30,905 bases of DNA, taken from positions 1 to 30,905 of IMG/VR virus record IMGVR_UViG_3300038426_000008; one strand, written 5' to 3'. The DNA is from a virus. The position numbers and the translations under genes were made by a program. Below the pieces are notes generated by a model. It was not told the origin of the DNA. It saw only the letters and a program-made list of their open reading frames with translations, and did not search any database. Positions 10,601 through 27,059 of this stretch are shown piece after piece; positions within the stretch are counted from its first letter, which is position 1; every line of letters begins with the position of its first letter.

Positions 10601-10827
10601 GAAGCGGTTCCCTTAAAAGCAGTTGCGTTTGAAGCTAGGTTAGAAGATAATCCCTGGGCCTTAGTCCCAGTCTTATCAAGCTCAGTGCCGAGTTTATCAA
10701 CATCGCTAGCCGCGCCTTTAAAAGAGGTAGATAACCCACTGGCTTCGGTTTTAGCGCCAGCTATCCCGGTCTTTAACCCCTCGGTGTTGGCGGTGATTAA
10801 AACTTCTAAAGTATCCAGGAGGGTCAT
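4669..10827 (-). CDS. Tail tape measure protein, 2052 residues
   Basis: It is by far the longest gene in the window and follows the tail-assembly chaperone with an ATGA overlap. The N-terminus has repeated Thr/Ser/Gly-rich segments (LDKTGTKAQGLSS, LDKTGTKAEGLTT), then a TP901-type core with hydrophobic segments such as IQLIALGAPILVGGLAAM. Residues 1160-1330 carry a Trp-rich tandem repeat. Residues 1364-1461 hold ten cysteines, eight within 31 residues. The typical C-terminal tape-measure motif occurs twice: VGEGGRSEAIIPSD near residue 1480 and LGEGGPEAVIPLKKG near the end. Two related helical segments (QEEINLVNTYYPQFGKAAS and QQEIDLVNKFYPQFGKSAS) lie between. The protein sets tail length; at about 0.15 nm per residue the tail would be near 300 nm (inference). 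Confidence 0.93.
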   Translation of the reverse strand: MTLLDTLEVLITANTEGLKTGIAGAKTEASGLSTSFKGAASDVDKLGTELDKTGTKAQGLSSNLASNATAFKGTASEADNLTTSLDKTGTKAEGLTTSLTSSTSSLGGFKSASQDAATATEDLGTKAEGAASKATGLSTSLGGVGRDLEGTSSKAKNLGGDLEGTASKTTGLGSSFGGLGNLAAAGLGGAAIAVTAFSVKAGESVQDAYNTMAKATGVQGEQLKTLEGVWSGVFANVPESAETVTSVIDTLTLKLGLQGQALQDAATDVIDYSIATGTSATSNITTFTTALNAANLGLTGMHKPVMDMPELSDMMTAAFQNTGVAVGKIAPIFDKATTSMTKMGMSIPQQIALIAQLSQAGIPARQVSTVLQGITKAATAAHESSSKFWGDMVEDAKKGTLTADETKLLGKSVDNFSSLAKAGKLDNDKLIDSITNSKGASEKAGEGYETMGEQIDRLKNSLTVAFAPIGITLINVLQNVLTAAEPLIGIVGTLAKVFAAIPAPIQLIALGAPILVGGLAAMNMVFSKIGGELGGLGSKFGGLIEKISGVDLASLKANKSLGDLDKTAAVGAEEKMGVPGGGKVGGVAAEGEELAGAEGVATEAGEVAPELEEAAGSAGLLSTIFTSISSTLGGILAPITGLVGGIGEAAAGALGIEGGLGAVLEVASSLVLPLTAVVGIFAVLYATSGTFRGMIGGILDTFKQIFGWVKDIIGALVGGNFAKVGDLLKTGFQGAINSLMNFNWSEWAGKMVTSVQESAGTIGNAIMGGLRSIYNIGTSVRSSIINALTTIDWGGVANSIVSGLASVYNIGISVRSSILSGLSGIGTALVGAFGALANIDWGQLFYNMLDSLDNTISTWLTNLENTDWTPVVTGLINAIGSVFDSLFGTTTGGGGGGSAGAKVSDGMSKSLSSGVQKAGPDIAGKLGDVLKKLAEIAPEIFYKIGTALIAALEKVDYGAVFNKMISGPLMHAVAGAFTNLPSTLAGALGGIGSAVSKINWGDAIAGLFKTLAGSASSFLQTILQLFRMVNWLQIFQLMFVLLPAFGQSLIQGFQKVDWGQALGTLGEAIKHVLGGIGGSVLGGLGSVGGMLGGAASGVGSALSGAAGTVGSALSGAGSTLSGAAGGLGSAIKSALTDFGSWLLKDAIPFFTGLPGKFATALVGFGTWLWKAAEDFVSNATWKTKIAAALTGFASWLWTAASDFVANTTWASKLATALVGLGSWLWTAAVDFVTNSTWASKLAAALVGLGSWLWTAAVDFVTNATWATKMAAALLGLASWLWTAAADFISNSTWMSKMTTALSGLGGVMINAAQSFFDKVASTILSLGKASPPANQQSAKGQTVDTTGQGAGQTLWLSDPTGTNCEICRNLMDTYPKATVMQGPSPSGNFSTYENPFPAARGLLVGGSIPRMQGGGLMGDIGPKPTGPDGSCTCPPGYFFCPEPDNRSCCSCGLCLSNGTPCNSAAAGSLVGSRSGGIPVIVGEGGRSEAIIPSDMWWGVHPAVLNALPRMAGGGIIPAPGSMNLVGPGGTSPTLPTDSSQYYDPKLTADQEILKLTVLAEETKQTNAELQEEINLVNTYYPQFGKAASSTIDANTALQNLAKLLPAIPGGYQAGGASPTTAGAWLQNGKWYYQTADEQIAYLTELAENTKQSTATLQQEIDLVNKFYPQFGKSASDITDATNAIAAYDAQTAANTAQTAQSAADAQKSLMSNISSLVDTVTKGIGSVGDALFGLMSAQESLKELPVRFGGVLTNLDYYPSNAKAGIEKDTGTPQIITALQGQGTPIGSNSVVSQLQNWGQQQINSGKSIFDGVASLASTAGSGLMGVISGLLTLGTGTQSNATLNANTLLASQNNNAQNLGNTVNNAGNKVSNSITSLASLLGGSSSGGGGGGIGGIFSGIIGIITGIVNLFTWIGNTIQEQKQPTEASFGYGGSYFITHSTKAPIDWDAMFGDLGQIASGFGSVMSGAMGMMGGGMGLQHGGIVTAPIVSRLGEGGPEAVIPLKKGANALGNQYTINMKVSGDENAVAVRKMADQVVKQIKRNDFMQNGWY
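6445..6537 (-). other. Cysteine-rich segment inside the tape measure
   Basis: Residues 1431-1461 of the tape-measure protein contain eight cysteines in the pattern C-x-C-x6-C-x7-CC-x-C-x2-C-x6-C, including CTCPPGYFFC and CCSCGLC. A further CEIC pair lies at residues 1364-1367 (6727-6738). The rest of this very long protein is nearly free of cysteine. The segment is flanked by Gly/Pro-rich linkers and a VGEGG motif, which makes it look like an inserted module. Confidence 0.75.
6949..7332 (-). repeat. 84-bp tandem repeat coding for Trp-rich 28-residue units in the tape measure
   Basis: The TW codon pair recurs with its Trp at 6949, 7033, 7117, 7201 and 7285, and the WLW motif recurs at 6985, 7069, 7153, 7237 and 7321, so both markers keep an exact 84-base period through five copies. 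A consensus unit reads TWASKLATALVGLGSWLW followed by TAAVDFVTNS. A sixth, diverged unit with GSWLLKD follows at about 7405, six bases out of register. Copies differ at many third positions, so the repeat is old rather than freshly expanded. Confidence 0.9.
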
Positions 10828-11009
10828 CTAGCTTTCTTGGCTTCCTGCTCCATCTGTTTGCGTGCCTTAGCTTCTTCTTCCATTCGTACGCCGAGGTAGA
10901 CCCGCCACATCATCTGCTCCTCGGCGGTCGTTTCTGTGAGGAGTTGTCTGACAGTTATTTTTAATCGGTCAGCCAGGTCAAAGATGAACCTCAGCCACGT
11001 GTTTTGCGA
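10824..11009 (-). CDS. Tail-assembly chaperone C-terminal extension, reached by -1 frameshift
   Basis: The -1 frame relative to the chaperone gene is open across its stop and continues 61 codons to a TGA that overlaps the tape-measure start. It encodes TWLRFIFDLADRLKITVRQL followed by LTETTAEEQMMWRVYLGV, which is the typical C-terminal 'T' part of lambda gpGT-like and related tail-assembly chaperones (helices, then T-AEE--W--Y). There is no upstream ATG or SD for it, only internal Met codons after the conserved part has begun. Ribosomes must slip between the -1-frame stops at about 11030-11035 and the zero-frame stop at 10991-10993. The only perfectly re-pairing site is U_UUU at 11009-11012 (codons AAT TTT CGC). 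Slippage there would give a 227-residue fusion. The site is not a standard heptamer, so the exact position is uncertain. Confidence 0.75.
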   Translation of the reverse strand, partial: SQNTWLRFIFDLADRLKITVRQLLTETTAEEQMMWRVYLGVRMEEEAKARKQMEQEAKKAR

Positions 11010-11506
11010 AAATTCGCGCGAGCCTGCTTCACCTCATCAGCGGAAAGTCCTGAGAGCCTGTCTGAAACTGAGCCGAGGAAGTCTATTGTACCCGGGTGTT
11101 TGCTCGCGAGCATGTCATGGTCGGCTCTTGTAAAGAGCTTTGACCCGGTTTCTGGATCGAAAGCGCAGTAGATAACTATCTCAATATTACTCCACTGTCG
11201 GATTACACCAGACGGCGCACCGTCTTTGAATTGAAGTTGTACGCTCTGTTGTAACTCGGCCCAGTCGCCTGCTGTGAGTGACTTCATCAGGATCTCTACT
11301 TCGTCTCCTCCATCACCCCACCACGGCACTCGAACAAGTTCTTCACGTCGATCGTTAACGTTAAGTATGCGGTCACGTAAGGACAATCGACTAGCTGGCT
11401 TCGCTTTGATCTTATTTTGCTCTTCCATCATTCTCTGCTCCTCTAGCTTCTTTTGCTTTTTAGGGCATTCAGGACAATCCTCATTATCTTCAATTTCTTT
11501 CTTCAC
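10991..11506 (-). CDS. Tail-assembly chaperone (gpG-like), zero-frame product
   Basis: This 171-residue protein starts at a GTG preceded by AAGAGGG and lies between the tail tube and the tape-measure gene, the fixed place of the tail-assembly chaperone in siphoviruses. The N-terminus is charged and has a CPECPKKQKK stretch; the body includes VEILMKSLTAGDWAELQQSV and FTRADHDMLASKHPGTIDFL, resembling the chaperone family (short helical proteins with a polar alternation). It ends with LSADEVKQARANFRKTRG, the normal place for a programmed frameshift. The chaperone and its longer frameshift form would coat the tape measure and recruit tail tube protein. Confidence 0.8.
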   Translation of the reverse strand: MKKEIEDNEDCPECPKKQKKLEEQRMMEEQNKIKAKPASRLSLRDRILNVNDRREELVRVPWWGDGGDEVEILMKSLTAGDWAELQQSVQLQFKDGAPSGVIRQWSNIEIVIYCAFDPETGSKLFTRADHDMLASKHPGTIDFLGSVSDRLSGLSADEVKQARANFRKTRG

Positions 11507-11528
11507 AGTATATCCCTCTTAATTAGTT

Positions 11529-16726: not shown

Positions 16727-17899
16727 TTACTCCCAGGTTGACGAAACACAGCCGCTTAGGAAGTAACCGAGATCCTGAGCGATTAGCTCCATGCCCATCG
16801 CCATCTCAGCTTCCATCCTCATTGCGCGTCTCCACTCCATGCGGAAGTTTCGCACTGCAAACCAGCCAGCTCCACCAGAACCCACGATGTCCTGATACGG
16901 CCCACCAGAGCTGAGGTATCCGTTCCATCCGAACGTGTATCCAGCCGAAGGTGTCAATATCGAGGGGGTTGGGTTGCTGTAGCAGAGCAATGCGTCTTTT
17001 CCATACGCAAATCCCATGCTTGGCGTGGCAGAGCCTTCCTGAGCCGAGTTCACCACACACATCGGGATGATGACCCTGTCAATAGAAAGCACCTGAGCAA
17101 GTGCCTGCTCACTGATGATTGCCGGGCTGCCTGGAGTTCCACCGTATTTGATTCTTTCTAGGATCTCAGGGTGAACGATCAGCGCTTCGTAGACTTCTGG
17201 CCCGATCACAAGAGTGTTCGGCACGTAGCCAGTAGCCATCGCCATCTCAAGCCTGTACTTCCGTATATCCTCGATAGGAGTTGAGTTCACCTGGTCGTCC
17301 CAGTACACGAAGTTCGGGGACCCACCGTATGCGCCGCCGGTCACTGTGTTGGTCCATACGTCCGTAAAGTAATTATTTACGAACTGCATCTCCCTTGCGA
17401 GTAGAAGCTTCTGCGTCAGGAACAACGAAATATCCCGCTGCATGTTCAACGGAGCATCGGCGTTAGCCGCAACCGCGTCACCGAGGTCAACATGCAATCC
17501 CCACACGTCGCACATGTAGGTATTTGTCATCTTGAGCCCGTAGCCGGTTCCGGTTGTCTCAGCACCGTCTAGCCGTACTTGAGCCTCATTCGTGAACCAG
17601 TAGTCTTTAGTGTACGAGACGTAGTAATCCGATTTCTTCATCACAGGGATGAGCGGAAATATCTCGGCTGCTCTAAAGTTGGTTTGAGACTGTATGTACG
17701 CAATAGAGAACATCGTGTTCGGGACGTTCACGTGTACATCGAAGACCGTAGGTTGAGCTTTTCTAAGAGTTACCTCATTAGGCATTGTCCATGCTTCGTA
17801 GGGGCTCTCGATAAGTCCAGCTTTGGTAAGCCTTTGGGCTGCTCCATAAACACCGAGGTTCGGAGTCGGGGTCGCAAAGTTTCTGTAATTTGTTGCCAT
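16727..17899 (-). CDS. Major capsid protein (HK97 fold)
   Basis: This 390-residue protein has AGGAGAAG upstream and follows the protease, scaffold-like and decoration genes, the canonical order. Segments typical of HK97-fold coat proteins with the Mu-like/GPE pattern include AAEIFPLIPVMKKSDYYVSY, the long helix-strand run LTQKLLLAREMQFVNNYFTD, IEDIRKYRLEMAMATGYVPN with NTLVIGPEVYEALIVHPEIL (spine helix and A-domain), and FRMEWRRAMRMEAEMAMGME near the C-terminus. There is no long N-terminal delta domain, consistent with a separate scaffold-like protein upstream. Confidence 0.9.
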   Translation of the reverse strand: MATNYRNFATPTPNLGVYGAAQRLTKAGLIESPYEAWTMPNEVTLRKAQPTVFDVHVNVPNTMFSIAYIQSQTNFRAAEIFPLIPVMKKSDYYVSYTKDYWFTNEAQVRLDGAETTGTGYGLKMTNTYMCDVWGLHVDLGDAVAANADAPLNMQRDISLFLTQKLLLAREMQFVNNYFTDVWTNTVTGGAYGGSPNFVYWDDQVNSTPIEDIRKYRLEMAMATGYVPNTLVIGPEVYEALIVHPEILERIKYGGTPGSPAIISEQALAQVLSIDRVIIPMCVVNSAQEGSATPSMGFAYGKDALLCYSNPTPSILTPSAGYTFGWNGYLSSGGPYQDIVGSGGAGWFAVRNFRMEWRRAMRMEAEMAMGMELIAQDLGYFLSGCVSSTWE

Positions 17900-18720: not shown

Positions 18721-19731
18721 TTACCTACCTCCGGCCATCAGGTTTCGCTGAAGGACCTGGTTGTAGCCTTCTGGGTCACTGTGTACGACATCGGTATACG
18801 CTTGCTCGTACGTCAACGCCCCGGCACTCTTCTGTACTCGTTCCTGAGCCAATGCATCCCACCGTGTAAGGGGATCCGATGCGTCAGCTTCTAAAGCACT
18901 GCCGTATTCAGCAAAGAGGCCGCCTTTTTGTAGCATTTCCTCGTGAGAGTCAAGCAGGTGGATAAAGGACTTGAAACCGTTTTCGCTAAGCTTGTCCGCT
19001 GCTTCTTTCATCAGAGGCACGAAGTCAGCTCCTTTAGCAATGTGCGTGTACTGCGCTGCCTTCTGGACAAACACCCTGTTTCGGTTTTCCTCTTCCATCT
19101 TTCGGATACGCTCATCTTTCTCTATGAGCTCTCTCCAAATCGGTCGGACGGCCTTTTGCACATCCTCTGGAAGCAGGTCAATATCTTCCTCTTTCTCAAT
19201 TCTTTCGAGGGCTTTTTCTATATGTTTCTTCATTTTACTAGCCTTGGACTTCTTAGCGCCATCACCGTCGCCGTCACCATCACCGTCGCCGTCACATCCA
19301 TCGCCGTCGTCGTCATCGTCCCCATCGCCATCTTTCCCTTTCGCGGCTTTGGCTTTCTGGAAACCTGAGAGAGCAGCGATTCTTTCAAAAACGTCATCTG
19401 GAAGAACGTCAGCGGTACTCTTGGTGAGCTTCACGATGCCCGTGAGGGCTTCGATCGCTTCAGGTGGCAGCCCTTTGAATTCCTTTTGTATAACTTCGCC
19501 ATCAGTGGTGTCCTGCTTGAGGACGTCGATAGCGAAGGCTGCTTCTGTATTTTGATCCATAAAATTAGATCCCGGTGTACGCTTATTCGCTGATTTAACC
19601 AAGTGAAGCTGTTTCCGGTTTGCACCCCGGGTTACGAGATGCACGCTCTCTACTTTGGTATCGGTCAGCTCAGTATCTTTTTGAAGATTAGCAAAGCTAG
19701 GTGCGTCATTTGTATCTACGTTATCGTTCAC
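18721..19731 (-). CDS. Scaffold-like head assembly protein with acidic Asp/Gly tract
   Basis: The start is a GTG with AAGG nine bases upstream; the first ATG in frame lies 57 codons later. The 336-residue protein begins with VESVHLVTRGANRKQLHLVK, a segment found in XkdF-like proteins just after the protease core. Residues 134-158 form an Asp/Gly tract coded by 19258-19332. Residues 160-225 are a strongly charged helix (KMKKHIEKALERIEKEEDID), as in scaffolds, and the C-terminus (SAGALTYEQAYTDVVHSDPE) resembles the end of prohead protease/scaffold proteins. It follows the protease gene by 18 bases. A scaffold role is inferred. Confidence 0.65.
   Translation of the reverse strand: MNDNVDTNDAPSFANLQKDTELTDTKVESVHLVTRGANRKQLHLVKSANKRTPGSNFMDQNTEAAFAIDVLKQDTTDGEVIQKEFKGLPPEAIEALTGIVKLTKSTADVLPDDVFERIAALSGFQKAKAAKGKDGDGDDDDDGDGCDGDGDGDGDGDGAKKSKASKMKKHIEKALERIEKEEDIDLLPEDVQKAVRPIWRELIEKDERIRKMEEENRNRVFVQKAAQYTHIAKGADFVPLMKEAADKLSENGFKSFIHLLDSHEEMLQKGGLFAEYGSALEADASDPLTRWDALAQERVQKSAGALTYEQAYTDVVHSDPEGYNQVLQRNLMAGGR
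19258..19332 (-). repeat. Low-complexity Asp/Gly tract in the scaffold-like protein
   Basis: Twenty-five codons (residues 134-158) code almost only for Asp and Gly with one Cys. The DNA reads as repeated GTC/GCC/ATC triplets on the plus strand. Alternating Asp-Gly runs can bind calcium, but this is an inference; it may only be a flexible acidic linker. Confidence 0.85.
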
Positions 19732-19749: not shown

Positions 19750-20115
19750 CTAAGTACGCTTTACGCGCACACCTGTTCCATCGATGCTGTATGCACCGAA
19801 TTCACCGCTCTGCGCACGCTGCCAAAGAGCATCGTTCAAAGCGGTAAACAGCACCCAGGAGCCTTTTCGTATATGTTCGCCATCGACGACCATATCAACG
19901 GGCGCGATGAAGCTCTCCACAGGCGTCGCCTCGGACTGACTCACCAGTTTTTCGTGATGGGTTCCGATCCTGCCACTGTTAGCGAGGTAATCATGCGCGA
20001 CTTTACGCAGTTCATCGGGACGTATATAGTCCCCTTGCGTATCAGTCTTGCAGACCTCGCCAGAGTTGCAGGGTTCGTACACAACACCCCACACGAGATG
20101 GTCTGTCCCTTTCAA
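19750..20115 (-). CDS. XkdF-like prohead protease domain (probably expressed by -1 frameshift)
   Basis: The recognisable core reads HLVWGVVYEP, YIRPDELRKVAHDYLANSG, VESFIAPVDMVVDGEHIRKG, GSWVLFTALNDALWQRAQSG and FGAYSIDGTG, the pattern of the XkdF-like serine protease domain used for prohead maturation. The given start is a TTG without a ribosome site, and family-like sequence (WHYTARLLKG) lies upstream of it. The frame is open back to 20241, overlapping the end of the glycosylase-like gene, with no ATG, GTG or SD. At 20229-20235 a slippery heptamer would bring ribosomes from that gene into this frame. I therefore think the true product is a 617-residue fusion and the free TTG product may not exist. 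A homopolymer sequencing error could give the same picture. Confidence 0.75.
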   Translation of the reverse strand: MKGTDHLVWGVVYEPCNSGEVCKTDTQGDYIRPDELRKVAHDYLANSGRIGTHHEKLVSQSEATPVESFIAPVDMVVDGEHIRKGSWVLFTALNDALWQRAQSGEFGAYSIDGTGVRVKRT

Positions 20116-20225
20116 CAGGCGGGCCGTGTAGTGCCAGGCCGCTGCTTGTTTCTTTATCGGTTCAAAATTCGTTTGTGAGTATTTAAGTATTTCTTGTACT
20201 TTAGCTTGTACCTGTGGACGCCTTA

Positions 20226-21602
20226 TCAGTTTTTTCGGTATCTAGCTTCAAGAGCCTTTGACACCTGTAACCTCTTTCGTGCGAATTCCTCATCAGTCCT
20301 CCACGTGCCTAGTGAGTTTGGATGAGGCATCGTGAACTCAACGTCCCTTTCCAATGCTTTCTTGACTGTATGACCTAAAGCTATAATCGGGATCTTACGC
20401 TTTGACTTAGATTCTACCTTAGCTATCTCATCCCTGAACCAGGGTTGCCACGCTTCGATCTCATCAGCCATTGGTTCTCGGACTTTTCCATCATCTTCTT
20501 TGAGGAGTTGTGGCACTAGAGGTACAATAGCTATATCTTCCCTTGTCAGTCCTAAAGGAGTTAGGTACTCGTCATTAAATATCTTGCCAGTAGCTCCTAC
20601 TAACGCTGACTTTCTGATTGACTCAACTACTCCTGGCGATGCAATAACGAAGGTAAGGATAGGCCGCTTTCCGATGTGAGTTATTACATCAGTTTTTTGG
20701 AGGCTCTTCTTATTCTTCAATTTCATGCAGTTGGCTTTAACCTTTTCGCAGTCAGCATCAGCCTCTTCAGCGGTTTCCTTCTTAACGCTTTTCTCTGCTT
20801 GGTTCTTTTTATCCTCATCGGATGCTATTGCGTCAACAGTATTAAAGTGGCATTTCTCTAGGTCTTCATCGCTTGGTTTATCTGACTTCTTTGTATCATC
20901 TGACCTAGAAGCTAACTCCTGTTTTATCTTAGATTTGAACGTGTCCATGTCAGCTTGGGTAAAGCCTTTGAGTGTATTTCCCGCTCCCTGGTGCTGTGCA
21001 AGCCGCCAGTTATAGGTCGTTAAGTCTTTCGTGCTCTTTCCTTTTATTTCAGCCGCGAGCTGTGCCATTCGGCTGTCAGATACTGCTTTTTCAACTTCTT
21101 CTTTACTCATCTTCTTTTTACTCGTTACATTAGGTGTTGCATTAGGTGTTGCGTTAGATGTTTGAGCTCCACTACCCGTAGTCTGATTCTCACACGTTTC
21201 ATCCCCTGGCGCACATGCGCTTTGATTATTCTGGTTACCCTGTAGTTGCGGCGGGCTTGGTGGAGTTAAGTCATCCTGTGTAGTCATTGGTGTGGCCTGT
21301 GGTATTGGCGTGATATTGGAAGGAAGTGGTTGCTTTTCGACTCCCTGCTCTGCGTTTACGTCTGCTTGTGTAGCTTGGGCTTGACGTGCCTCTGTTGCTG
21401 CTTGCGCTGATTCGGATTGTGCTTGAGCAGCGGCAGCAGCGCGTGCCTTACCACTTGCTTTTCCACCAGCGCGAGGTAGGGCTTGCCTGTGTAGGTTGTC
21501 CATCACATGCGGGGGAACGTATTGTCTCACCGCCTCTAAAAGTTCTGAGATATACTCCTGTGAGTACTCTTTTGGTTTCGCTTCCTTTTCTATTTCTTCC
21601 AT
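20226..21602 (-). CDS. Head assembly protein with C-terminal uracil-DNA-glycosylase-like domain
   Basis: This 458-residue protein has AAAGGTAACAA upstream of its ATG. Residues 1-160 are helical then low-complexity (Ala/Gln, Thr/Pro; ATPNATPN). Residues 165-235 look like an unknown helical domain. Residues 305-456 resemble the uracil-DNA glycosylase superfamily: LTFVIASPG (motif 1 position), SALVGATGKIFND, YLTPLGLTREDIAIVPLVP, PIIALGHTVKKAL, and MPHPNSLG (HPN at 427-429, the place of the catalytic-loop H-P-S motif). Activity is not certain: the motif 1 residues differ from the usual GEAPG/GxDPY. The gene ends in CGA AAA AAC TGA, a slippery heptamer directly before the stop, leading into the protease frame. 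Its place in the head operon suggests packaging into the prohead. Confidence 0.7.
   Translation of the reverse strand: MEEIEKEAKPKEYSQEYISELLEAVRQYVPPHVMDNLHRQALPRAGGKASGKARAAAAAQAQSESAQAATEARQAQATQADVNAEQGVEKQPLPSNITPIPQATPMTTQDDLTPPSPPQLQGNQNNQSACAPGDETCENQTTGSGAQTSNATPNATPNVTSKKKMSKEEVEKAVSDSRMAQLAAEIKGKSTKDLTTYNWRLAQHQGAGNTLKGFTQADMDTFKSKIKQELASRSDDTKKSDKPSDEDLEKCHFNTVDAIASDEDKKNQAEKSVKKETAEEADADCEKVKANCMKLKNKKSLQKTDVITHIGKRPILTFVIASPGVVESIRKSALVGATGKIFNDEYLTPLGLTREDIAIVPLVPQLLKEDDGKVREPMADEIEAWQPWFRDEIAKVESKSKRKIPIIALGHTVKKALERDVEFTMPHPNSLGTWRTDEEFARKRLQVSKALEARYRKN
20229..20235 (-). other. A_AAA_AAC slippery heptamer, candidate -1 ribosomal frameshift site
   Basis: Read on the minus strand in the glycosylase-like frame the codons are CGA AAA AAC TGA; the heptamer A AAA AAC fits the X_XXY_YYZ rule exactly. 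A one-base backward slip moves reading to CTG ATA AGG CGT, which is the protease frame, open for 159 further codons. No strong hairpin or well-spaced internal SD is evident nearby, though AAAGG lies about 19 bases upstream. Confidence 0.7.
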
Positions 21603-21630: not shown

Positions 21631-23649
21631 TTAAACATAAAACGGCCTGAATGTCACCGTGAATTCTTCAACACCTTCATCATCAACTCTCATAGTGATA
21701 AAATGATAACCGGAATGATTAGGCATCCTCTTTGATCTCATCCATCTGGATTGCGTTGATAGTGCTCCACCACTTACCGCGTGAATATGACGCTCAAAGA
21801 AGTACCCTTGTTTGTGAGCATGCCCCATAAGCAACACTTGTGGTTTGTCTCCTCCAGTAAAGCTCTCTATCAACTTTTGAATCCGATAACTATTGTGCGT
21901 CCAGAGCGTTTTCCCGTTTCTTCTAACTAAAATAAGTCCGTTGGGAACTTCGCAGCAATATACGCGCCCTGTATAGTGAACAATCGATGGTGCTGTATTA
22001 ACGGTCGGTGTTGTTTGCACAGAGGTTATAGTAACCGTGTCACCCCCCCTCGTGAACGTTATCTTGTAGCCTAATTTAATCGCAATTTCTGAAAAATCCT
22101 CTAATAATCTTTTGCTTATTGATCTATAACCGTACCCATTTGGAGAGCGCCATCCATCTCCAGATATCATGGTTTCAAATACGATCTGCAAAACGGAAGT
22201 ATCACAATCCTTCAACCATTTTGGAAGATATTTATTAGCGCTTTTATGCCCACACTCTGCCTTTAAAAAGTCTGCTAGTTCTCCACTATGTATTGTTATA
22301 CCTTTCTTAGACGATCCATAGCTACAACCCAATCGGTCTGCCAAATCAATCATTGCAGAATAGTTCTCAGGGTTGACATTTTTATATTGAGATAACGAAA
22401 CGTAATATTTTCTTGCGTGACCTTCAGTTACATACCACGCTATCAGTTCTGCAATATCGTCAATCGGAACGTCGCCGAAATGATATGATTTGACTCCTGG
22501 ATTCTTAGACTCTCTTGGAATGATAGCAACGGTTTTTGGGGTTTTTCCGTCCCACCCATTTGAGACTTGTGTAAACTGCCATTTTTGTCTGCCGTATTCG
22601 TTAACGATATCGATTGCATCTTTCCTATGCCAATTGGTGTTTAATCTAATATGGGATTTTGTAGGATACTTCAATGATTCCAATCGTTTGTAAGTAGCAC
22701 ATTCAGAAGCCCTCGTCCACATACCATGACTAGGCGTTACTAAACAATCTATGGTTCTCGCCTTGAAGTGAACCATTCCTCCATCATAATACTCATCGGT
22801 GATATGTGTTGGATTCTGCCACTCAAATACGTGGTCAGACTTCCTCATCGTTGCAACGCGATCTGTCTTTTCTAAATCCTGGAACAGTTTCCAGCCGTCA
22901 CTGGTCATTATCTCCGTTTTATCATCAAAGCAGGTCGCATAGCTAGATCCGTCCTCACCATGAAAGACACGAATTATTACTCCGCCGATTTCTATATCCC
23001 CTTCATCTCTGCCTATGTATTCCATATTCGGGACAGCTTCACATACGTCTTGTACAATATTTGCACCCACTATCTCGTACCACCTGTCATGATTGCCGCT
23101 GATTAGATACGTATGAAAAGGGATTTTAGATAGTTGTGTTTCAGCATACGCTTTCTGTGCCTCGTATCCAATGTCTCTTAGTTCGTAGATCAGATTGTAC
23201 TTACGTACATCCATGCCATGAGTCAAATCTCCACCAAACACGACGAACTGAGCCTTTCGCTTTTTGCATGTGTGTATGAAATCATCTAGGAATTCCTCGT
23301 GATAGTAGATGCTTGACATATGGGAATCGGTAAAATATCCAAATCGTATTTCCTCTCCTGCATGGCTTAAGGTTACTTTAGGAGCCCCTACAGAAAACGG
23401 GTCAACGCTTTTACCTTTAGATAATGCTTTTAGCTCTTCGTGGGTGTATCGTTCTCCGATCCCTTCTAAATATCTGGCTTGGCGTTTTTCTCTTCTATCT
23501 TCTCGCTGCCATTCGGTTTTATAGTCACGTTCTCTTTCACGGTTATTTGAGTGGTACTTCTTGCCTTCTTCCCGGCAGGCATCGCAGGTTTTGTATGCTT
23601 CTGATTCGAGTGCGATTGGTTTATTACAGCGGGAGCAAAGTCTTGTCAC
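21631..23649 (-). CDS. Metallophosphoesterase interrupted by an intein
   Basis: The start is a GTG with GAGGTGAG upstream. The 672-residue precursor begins with a zinc-ribbon-like stretch (CSRC at 5-8, CDAC at 23-26). The calcineurin-like phosphoesterase motifs follow in order: FTDSH (D108, H110), GGDLTH (D141), GNHD (186-188), VFHGED (H230), and GHAH (609-612) beyond the intein. Residues 240-586 form an intein; the spliced protein would be 325 residues. All metal-binding residues are kept in the exteins. It lies between portal-associated genes and the head protease, unusual for a nuclease or phosphatase, so a DNA end-processing or assembly role is only a guess. It may be a DNase/phosphodiesterase of the phage phosphoesterase family. 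Confidence 0.88.
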   Translation of the reverse strand: MTRLCSRCNKPIALESEAYKTCDACREEGKKYHSNNRERERDYKTEWQREDRREKRQARYLEGIGERYTHEELKALSKGKSVDPFSVGAPKVTLSHAGEEIRFGYFTDSHMSSIYYHEEFLDDFIHTCKKRKAQFVVFGGDLTHGMDVRKYNLIYELRDIGYEAQKAYAETQLSKIPFHTYLISGNHDRWYEIVGANIVQDVCEAVPNMEYIGRDEGDIEIGGVIIRVFHGEDGSSYATCFDDKTEIMTSDGWKLFQDLEKTDRVATMRKSDHVFEWQNPTHITDEYYDGGMVHFKARTIDCLVTPSHGMWTRASECATYKRLESLKYPTKSHIRLNTNWHRKDAIDIVNEYGRQKWQFTQVSNGWDGKTPKTVAIIPRESKNPGVKSYHFGDVPIDDIAELIAWYVTEGHARKYYVSLSQYKNVNPENYSAMIDLADRLGCSYGSSKKGITIHSGELADFLKAECGHKSANKYLPKWLKDCDTSVLQIVFETMISGDGWRSPNGYGYRSISKRLLEDFSEIAIKLGYKITFTRGGDTVTITSVQTTPTVNTAPSIVHYTGRVYCCEVPNGLILVRRNGKTLWTHNSYRIQKLIESFTGGDKPQVLLMGHAHKQGYFFERHIHAVSGGALSTQSRWMRSKRMPNHSGYHFITMRVDDEGVEEFTVTFRPFYV
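21892..22932 (-). mobile_element. Intein with LAGLIDADG homing endonuclease (347 residues)
   Basis: Junctions are clear: extein YAT precedes Cys240 (codon 22930-22932) and the last residues are THN (586) followed by extein Ser587. Splicing blocks: A, CFDDKTEIMTSDGWKLF; B, CLVTPSHGMW with T305 and H308; F/G, RVYCCEVPNGLILV and LWTHN. Between them two dodecapeptide motifs of a DOD endonuclease are present, LIAWYVTEGH (402-411) and VFETMISGDGW (490-500), with acidic residues E409 and D498 kept. Thus both splicing and homing look intact. The insertion point is in a conserved motif just after active-site H230, as usual for inteins. Confidence 0.93.
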
Positions 23650-25118: not shown

Positions 25119-25255
25119 TTCAACTCCCTAAACGGACAGTTATCGATATGGTGTTTTATTTCCCGTCTCAGTTCTTTTATTTCATCCTTAAGCTTCCTGA
25201 TCTCCTGCTCAATTTCAGGTTCGGTCAGGAATTTAACATGAAGATTAGCTGGCAT
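25112..25255 (-). CDS. Small coiled-coil protein, 47 residues
   Basis: The ATG at 25253-25255 lies inside the end of the portal gene (11-base overlap). The product begins MPANLHVKFL and has a heptad-like charged helix (EIEQEIRKLKDEIKELRREI) before HHIDNCPFRELKC, with two cysteines near the end. It resembles short coiled-coil accessory proteins; no family is recognised. The overlap with both neighbours suggests translational coupling. Confidence 0.6.
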   Translation of the reverse strand: MPANLHVKFLTEPEIEQEIRKLKDEIKELRREIKHHIDNCPFRELKC

Positions 25256-27059
25256 TTGATCGCTTCTTTTTCTTCTTTTTAGGTTGCGTCCCTTGGACGT
25301 ATGCGACTGAGAACTCTTCGCTCGGCTTATTCACGTGTACATCGCCTACTGAAGGTTGGCTCTTTTGTGTTTTCTTAGCGGCCACATCAGCACCTAACTG
25401 GCTATATGTACTCGGGAACCCGCGAGGAGGCGTGCCACGGTAAGGTGTCTCTTCGTTAATAGGTTGACTACGTTCTCTAGCTCGAGCTGCGGTCTGTCCA
25501 GGCAGTAGTGAATCAACCGGCGTTGCAGTCTCGCCCTCGGGTTCAGGTTCCTTCGGCAGGTGTACCAGATCCCATAGGGCGTTTCTAAAGGTTACATCGT
25601 CCGGTATTGGAACACCGCCTCTAGCTACGTTATTCAGGAATGTACCTACATCGTTAATCTCAGCAGATGCTACATCGCCGTGTACTAGTTTAGGTAAAGA
25701 CTCCGGGTTTATATCAGGATTTAATTGAGCTAATCTAGGAACTGCATAACTGTTGAATACCTGGCAAATTGAATCGAGTATAGCAGATATTGAAATCGAA
25801 AATAGATTATTCCTAGTTTCAGCAAGTGCATATGATCCTGTAGTGTCCTGGCCGAGCATAAGAAAATCAGCGAGTACTGTCATAGCTATCCATTTCGAGA
25901 ACATCTGGATAATGCTGACAATATCAAATTGTCTCTGTGATTGTGGGCCTGCTAGCTCTAGGCTATACATTGGACCGCCACCCATGTCTGCTGGATAGTT
26001 GTTTGATGGCAAGAGTATGCCCTCATCCTGGTTACGCTTTAGGTTGCGAACAACGCGCTTTAGCATGTTATTCATTGCTACAGATCGGGCATCGATTCCA
26101 GTTAATACCTCACCAGGAGCACGTAGGATCGGGACGCCAGCCAGGTCGCGTTCGAGCCCAGTCATCATAATCTCTTCCGCTAATTTTTTGAACATATACG
26201 TCCGGTATGCTCCACGTAATAGAGAGACACCTTCTGGGTTGCCTTTGCGTGGCTTGACTCTAAACAACAACAGCTTTTCTATCGGTATTTCGGTGATCCT
26301 AAAGTGAGGCGGTGCGAGCTGTCTAAATCCTCTTATTCCGCCGTTAACGTCAAAGTCCCAATTCAATAATGTTTCCTGTGCTCTGGTAGCGAACTTCCTC
26401 CATCCGATTCTACCATCGTCATAGTTACTATCAAGCGTTGCGTCTTCTGGATGTGGGCCTTCTCGTTTCTTATACACGATTTCAGCGAGATGATACCCGA
26501 ATATGAACATGCTCAGTATCTCAGAGAGCAGATCATTTGGATTGACGCTCATATCTTCCCAGCATTGCTCGTAAAACGTCAGTGCTTTTAGATCCTCTGG
26601 AGTCTCGCCGTCGGTTTCCCACCAAAGGTTTACCGATCTACATGACATTTCAACCGCGTAAAAGATACTTGATATGACGGCATCCATCATGTACATTTCT
26701 TTGTACATACGAACGCCGCGAGTGTATTGGAGTTCAGTCAGCCATTCCTCATACACGTAGGGAGGAATGTACATTAAGCCGGTAGTGCCGTACTCTGCGA
26801 AGTAGTTTAGATTAGCTGGTGCAGCGGGTGATGAGGGGCCTATTCCCATAAGATCGCCTGAGCCTAATGTGGGTAAACCCTGGGTAGTGAACGGCATCTC
26901 TTGAAGATCGATAAGTTTCTTTATTGTCTGTTGCTCAGACTTGGAGAGCTTTGAAAATGCGTTTTGCTCTGCTTCACTAAAGGATGTGATCCCGTTAGGA
27001 GGACTTTCGGGGAATGATGTTATCCCATTAGGTTCAGTATTATTCTTTTTTCGAGCCAT
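25245..27059 (-). CDS. Portal protein (DUF935 / Mu gp29-like)
   Basis: This 604-residue protein starts at an ATG preceded by AAGGTAACAATGCTATA. Portal features are: KEMYMMDAVISSIFYAVEMS near residue 120, ILSMFIFGYHLAEIVYKKRE (wing/stem start), WDFDVNGGIRGFRQLAPP, LLLFRVKPRKGNPEGVSLLR with the adjoining GAYRTYMFKKLAEEIMMTG helix, and WIAMTVLADFLMLGQDTTGS with YALAETRNN, the hallmark of the DUF935-like portals. The C-terminal 100 residues are low-complexity and end in a Lys-rich tail (KKKKKKRSNAS). It would form the dodecameric vertex for DNA passage; the terminase is outside the window. Confidence 0.9.
   Translation of the reverse strand: MARKKNNTEPNGITSFPESPPNGITSFSEAEQNAFSKLSKSEQQTIKKLIDLQEMPFTTQGLPTLGSGDLMGIGPSSPAAPANLNYFAEYGTTGLMYIPPYVYEEWLTELQYTRGVRMYKEMYMMDAVISSIFYAVEMSCRSVNLWWETDGETPEDLKALTFYEQCWEDMSVNPNDLLSEILSMFIFGYHLAEIVYKKREGPHPEDATLDSNYDDGRIGWRKFATRAQETLLNWDFDVNGGIRGFRQLAPPHFRITEIPIEKLLLFRVKPRKGNPEGVSLLRGAYRTYMFKKLAEEIMMTGLERDLAGVPILRAPGEVLTGIDARSVAMNNMLKRVVRNLKRNQDEGILLPSNNYPADMGGGPMYSLELAGPQSQRQFDIVSIIQMFSKWIAMTVLADFLMLGQDTTGSYALAETRNNLFSISISAILDSICQVFNSYAVPRLAQLNPDINPESLPKLVHGDVASAEINDVGTFLNNVARGGVPIPDDVTFRNALWDLVHLPKEPEPEGETATPVDSLLPGQTAARARERSQPINEETPYRGTPPRGFPSTYSQLGADVAAKKTQKSQPSVGDVHVNKPSEEFSVAYVQGTQPKKKKKKRSNAS

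Follow-up and report, generated by a model that had tools for sequence, protein, structure and literature searches.

We propose that a small group of peat-soil viruses produces its head protease only as a C-terminal extension of a UDG-like protein, through programmed -1 ribosomal frameshifting at the heptamer A_AAA_AAC. On the basis of sequence comparisons we give this reading a probability of roughly three in four. The window, which is the whole 30,905-nt stretch of virus record IMGVR_UViG_3300038426_000008 analysed here, carries a head module on its minus strand that runs from a portal gene (25245-27059, identified by profile matches) through a metallophosphoesterase gene (21631-23649), a 458-codon ORF (20226-21602), the protease frame (19750-20241) and an acidic scaffold-like ORF 3' of it (18721-19731) to the gene for the major capsid protein (16727-17899; phrog_1005, E = 3e-66; PF03864). 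The protease frame thus sits between the portal and capsid genes, as XkdF-type head proteases do. It would be entered from the 458-codon ORF by a shift of one base backwards at the end of that ORF, where the slippery heptamer directly abuts the stop codon.

Genes on either side of the junction

The protease frame consists of a variable linker followed by an XkdF-type (Peptidase_S78_2) domain, and ends at a TAG (19750-19752). It matches PF14550 with an E-value of 2.2e-25 (89.5 bits against a cut-off of 24, covering profile positions 11-124 of 126) and the phrog_3017 head maturation protease with an E-value of 1.7e-27. By these profile matches the frame encodes an XkdF-type head protease, and proteolysis of head proteins is its predicted activity. 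Neither the window nor the relatives of 53 kb and 58 kb, contigs that may be incomplete, contain another PF14550 match; PF04586, the other phage S78 family, is absent from the same set. AlphaFold models of the protease (pLDDT 35) and of the UDG-like domain (pLDDT 46) were too poor for a fold search.

The first-pass annotation of the window had stated that no ATG or GTG precedes the conserved core of the protease, and the statement can be widened: between the heptamer and the first TTG of the frame (20113-20115, minus strand) there is no ATG, GTG or TTG in any lineage, except within an insert peculiar to one of them (L005, described below). That TTG is invariant, but it falls within conserved family sequence (AAAWHYTARL-L) and is itself preceded by the invariant QAAAWHYTARL, in agreement with the earlier remark that family-like sequence begins upstream of it. 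The TTG is therefore unlikely to be the protease start. The linker that follows the heptamer in this frame reads QVQAKVQEILKYSQTNFEPIK. Upstream of the TTG the -1 frame has pN/pS ratios of 0.33-0.89, calculated from few sites and with some pairs near 1, and its insertions and deletions come in multiples of three.

The product of the 458-codon ORF has a conserved N-terminus, a variable middle and a C-terminal domain (approximately residues 300-458) that resembles the UDG superfamily. It had been called glycosylase-like, and the resemblance stands, if weakly: the PF03167 match is marginal (E = 2.7e-5, 24.7 bits against a cut-off of 24.3), matches to the NCBIfam type-4 UDG and UdgX models (E of about 1e-6) fall far below their curated cut-offs, and a profile match to the UDG of PDB entry 4zbx has E = 3.9e-4. 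Motif 1 (GEAPG), however, lacks its acidic residue in all members that have the region, which read IASPG or AASPG. Glycosylase activity is therefore doubtful and we make no claim of enzymatic activity; the UDG-like domain may be an inert structural domain. From its place between the portal and capsid genes we infer that the upstream protein is a head protein. It had also been cast as a packaged scaffold, a role that it may or may not have; a separate scaffold-like ORF lies downstream (18721-19731). The middle of the UDG-like ORF has been exchanged between lineages, L003 and L006 carrying a different module, AHGKQDAPVA...SYYKDIGEDAPDN.

Several other features of the neighbourhood deserve description in their own right. 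At the start of the scaffold-like ORF stands a motif, VHLVTRGANRK, that has its counterpart at the N-terminus of phrog_3017 protease-scaffold proteins; it looks as if the protease part had perhaps been separated from an ancestral gene and then been joined to the upstream ORF. The protease stop is followed in the same frame by the scaffold ORF in the window; read-through of that stop was considered and dropped, as the arrangement is not conserved in L003. The metallophosphoesterase gene (21631-23649, minus strand) contains an intein-like insertion (CFDDKTEIMTSDGW...LWTHN|S), and its homologue in L003 and L005 has no such insertion and reads GSSYAT|SYR without interruption. In the L006 lineage the UDG-like ORF is preceded by an HNH-endonuclease-like ORF (L006:2053-2664), which takes the place that the metallophosphoesterase gene has in the window.

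Conservation of the junction among divergent relatives

The upstream ORF ends TAC CGA AAA AAC TGA (minus strand). The heptamer (20229-20235) lies in the 0-frame phase required for tandem -1 slippage and abuts the TGA stop (20226-20228), as had been noted at first sight, and the -1 frame that slippage would reach is indeed the protease frame. That frame is open from 20241 to the TAG at 19750-19752, a span of 163 codons of which 159 follow the shift. Reading after slippage continues CTG ATA AGG CGT..., and the computed fusion (...EARYRKN-LIRRPQ...protease) has the 617 residues first estimated. The two ORFs overlap by only 13 nt, with the heptamer inside the overlap and correctly phased (CGA AAA AAC). 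Without exception among the lineages, a TAG lying 6 nt 5' of the heptamer (20242-20244 in the window) closes the -1 frame, and the 0 frame ends at the TGA or TAG that abuts the heptamer, so that the shift must fall within the 13-nt sequence ATACCGAAAAAAC (20229-20241, minus strand). The heptamer AAAAAAC is not rare by itself, occurring four times in the window against 5.9 expected; chance does not account for where it lies, for its phase or for how well it is conserved.

To be recoverable by comparison, a recoding site must persist in sequences that have otherwise diverged, and the relatives of the window have diverged a great deal. A related-locus search gave 14 loci, and a scan of the whole IMG/VR viral collection for the junction DNA pattern gave 14 contigs from 14 metagenomes, all of them members of this group. 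They form about five sequence lineages: the window itself, L003/L004, L005, L006-L011 with L014, and L012. The upstream ORFs of the relatives are 56-61% identical to that of the window, and their synonymous sites are near saturation (pS 0.68-0.78 relative to the window), which is what makes invariance at the junction informative. All 14 junction contigs carry A_AAA_AAC with six A's directly before the stop, every junction consists of GCTAGATACCGAAAAAACT followed by GA or AG, and the 13-nt shift window is identical in all lineages.

Constraint on this block is visible at the level of codon choice. When only codons that encode the same amino acid in three lineages are considered, the upstream ORF has 11 identical codons among its last 13, where about three are expected from the background of 24% in the rest of that ORF (binomial P = 6.8e-6), and no other 13-codon stretch of the ORF has more than six identical codons. 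The differences that do occur respect both frames. In L003/L004 the stop is TAG instead of TGA, and the overlapping -1 codon changes from CTG to CTA (Leu to Leu); the change is silent in the -1 frame and both readings are therefore preserved. The linker after the heptamer is highly variable, always by whole codons. In L005 about 75 extra codons lie in frame between the heptamer and the protease, and the site is intact; this insert (L005:2658-3380, -1 frame) carries a GGPGSGPHPG motif and a weak winged-helix-like match to DUF5697 (E = 0.006). Comparison among lineages indicates that both frames are under purifying selection. The alignment of relatives proposed in the first-pass annotation thus found the heptamer, the two frames and the abutting stop conserved across divergent sequences, in support of a frameshift that fuses the upstream ORF to the XkdF-type protease.

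The same comparison disposes of the simplest explanation, that an A is missing from what is really an in-frame fusion gene through sequencing error, or that the locus is a pseudogene. A homopolymer run does lie exactly at the frame change, but the run has six A's in 14 of 14 assemblies from 14 metagenomes and about five diverged lineages, with seven A's in none of these independent sequences, and selection on both frames speaks against decay; error or decay is excluded or very unlikely.

No provirus was found among genome contigs, searches that took the capsid protein, the upstream ORF or the UDG-like domain of that ORF as query returned matches from the same group only, and a tblastn search of phage records with the upstream ORF returned no match. 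The family is therefore narrow, and no intermediate state, whether an in-frame fusion or a protease with its own start, is seen within it. Relatives that encode the protease with a start of its own, which had been named beforehand as evidence against a frameshift, do exist, but only among distant cultured phages and never among group members. In a set of 14 such phages (13 regions plus RDJL Phi 1 gp71) annotation places the XkdF-family domain within an ordinary gene with its own start in every case, often as the N-terminal part of an in-frame protease-scaffold protein, and none of the 14 is annotated as frameshift-joined.

The 5' hairpin and competing explanations

Immediately upstream of the heptamer lies a potential RNA hairpin, GGURUC-AAA-GGCU-CUYGA-AGCU-A-GAUACC (20237-20265, minus strand), whose 3' end is 1 nt from the first A. 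The same minimum-free-energy structure, at -10.8 kcal/mol, was obtained for all seven sequences folded, and only two of its positions vary, one in the stem, where G-U alternates with A-U, and one in the loop. Its stability is moderately unusual, in that 1.3% of synonymous recodings fold equally well, and it shows a modest excess over shuffled sequences (z-scores of -0.7 to -2.5). In a sequence from the same virus as L003 (L017:4950-5065), UUACAGGUG, which forms the 5' arm of the hairpin, is also perfectly complementary to a downstream CACCUGUAA, so an alternative structure around the slippery site is possible in that lineage.

Stimulatory elements are common at -1 frameshift sites but do not strictly define them. 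Here the only conserved flanking features are the abutting stop and the 5' hairpin. No downstream pseudoknot or stem-loop is shared among lineages; a stem 3' of the site can form in L006-type sequences only. Another block, with little synonymous change and lying about 75-130 nt downstream, was a candidate 3' stimulator but was rejected, its excess being weak (P = 0.015) and its position shifted by more than 200 nt in L005. Shine-Dalgarno-like stimulators of -1 shifts are spaced 9-14 nt from the site (PMC5009743), and none is found at that distance upstream of the heptamer.

Conservation of the hairpin is not simply explained by slippage on the ribosome, because an element 1 nt from the heptamer should already be inside the ribosome. 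It is a point in favour of transcriptional slippage, in which RNA polymerase, helped by a hairpin in the nascent RNA, would add an A on the A6 run; the share of mRNA with seven A's would then yield a nearly identical fusion, with RKK-L at the junction instead of RKN-L. A hairpin adjoining the homopolymer is the arrangement known from stem-loop-dependent slippage in Roseiflexus IS630, and a stem-loop also lies 5' of the A9 run of IS1447 (PMC5009743, PMC6211511); the lack of a conserved 3' ribosomal stimulator fits as well. However, a run of six is short: in IS1447 no frameshift product came from constructs whose run had six A's or fewer, and the run had to reach seven (PMC6211511). Nor does the polymerase model require the invariant terminal C, the phase of the heptamer or the abutting stop. 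For these reasons slippage on the ribosome is favoured as the most likely route, and slippage by RNA polymerase is less likely and, as an account of the locus, improbable.

Less probable still is independent synthesis of the protease, by internal or coupled initiation at the CTG overlapping the TGA, at an AUA codon or at TTG 20115. A CTG does overlap the stop in most lineages (CTGA), and the invariance of TTG 20115 could be read in the same sense. In L003/L004, however, the overlap is CTA, which removes the CTG as a possible start there, and we regard this start as excluded or very unlikely. Initiation at the TTG would cut off the conserved QAAAWHYTARL, upstream in-frame candidates are lacking outside the L005 insert, and initiation of any kind gives the invariant heptamer and 13-nt window no reason to exist.

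There is only a slight chance that the conserved block of about 40 nt is kept for another purpose, for example as an RNA-processing site or a phage promoter, with the frameshift incidental. The synonymous constraint does span the hairpin as well as the heptamer, but the block is unique in the window and has no match in Rfam, and the protease frame would still be left without a start.

Proposed mechanism and comparison with known systems

Under ribosomal frameshifting, most ribosomes would read CGA AAA AAC and halt at the abutting TGA or TAG, releasing the 458-residue protein, while in a minority tRNA-Lys and tRNA-Asn would move back one base in tandem, and reading would go on through CTG ATA AGG... 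to give the fusion of about 617 residues. The abutting stop and the conserved 5' hairpin may set the efficiency of the shift. The fusion would supply protease at a fixed substoichiometric ratio, the upstream protein would probably carry its fused protease into the procapsid, and the protease would later release itself.

The site has precedents. A_AAA_AAC is a natural -1 site in tail genes of an archaeal tailed virus (HCTV-2) and on mammalian ribosomes ranks with the heptamers that shift most readily (PMC5009743). In E. coli it is a weak shifter compared with A_AAA_AAG (PMC5009743). A slippery site directly before a TGA has been predicted in the tail genes of phage KL1 (PMC3483164).

Tailed phages and herpesviruses have to bring a small number of molecules of a dangerous protease into the procapsid at the correct moment. 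They are known to do so with separate genes, with nested genes or by fusing the protease to the scaffold. If the proposal is true, a protease fusion made by frameshifting would mean that the solution of retroviral Gag-Pro has been reached independently, and it would explain why automated annotation would assign a false TTG start or miss the protease. A recoding review lists phage frameshifting in tail chaperones, capsid extensions and cro (PMC5009743), and a frameshift-made prohead protease was not found in the open-licence literature. The invariant cassette is a small, defined element, and a single junction residue (RKN-L or RKK-L) separates ribosomal from polymerase slippage. More tentatively, this cassette, some 40 nt long and made up of the 5' hairpin, a single base, A_AAA_AAC and the stop, with no conserved 3' stimulator, might by itself suffice for recoding and govern how the head protease of a tailed virus is delivered, acting either through a nascent-RNA hairpin and transcriptional slippage or through the 5' hairpin and abutting stop on the ribosome; it would then be a Gag-Pro-like switch that arose independently in a dsDNA virus.

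The gag-pro junctions of MMTV and HTLV use A_AAA_AAC. As in retroviral Gag-Pro(-Pol) (MMTV, HTLV; PMC5009743), a slip close to the 3' end of an ORF for a structural or assembly protein would yield a minor product with a maturation protease at its C-terminus; here, by contrast, the virus is an unrelated DNA virus, the protease has an unrelated fold, the partner is UDG-like and not Gag, the stop directly follows the heptamer and there is no conserved 3' pseudoknot. Slippage at an RNA hairpin in Roseiflexus IS630 and IS1447 likewise joins a stem-loop immediately 5' of a slippage-prone run to a fused product, but the present run has only six A's, ends in an in-phase AAC and abuts a stop.

Among phages, the tail assembly chaperones of tailed phages (lambda G/GT) are also a low-ratio -1 fusion serving virion assembly, but they are tail genes and encode no protease. 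The virus described here has a separate tail-chaperone-like pair before its tape-measure gene, in which an ORF at 10991-11518 overlaps a -1-frame ORF at 10824-11033 (minus strand); their overlap (10991-11033; AATTTTCGCAAAACACG) shows no standard heptamer. The head-gene frameshifts of T3/T7 gene 10, Lactobacillus A2 and Listeria PSA/A118 similarly produce a minor C-terminal extension, but theirs is Ig-like or structural and not a catalytic protease. The XkdF/phrog_3017 head maturation proteases of cultured phages belong to the same protease family and occupy the same place in the head module. The logic of the arrangement resembles that of Gag-Pro, and by this analogy the viruses of this group would have put a known mechanism to a new use.
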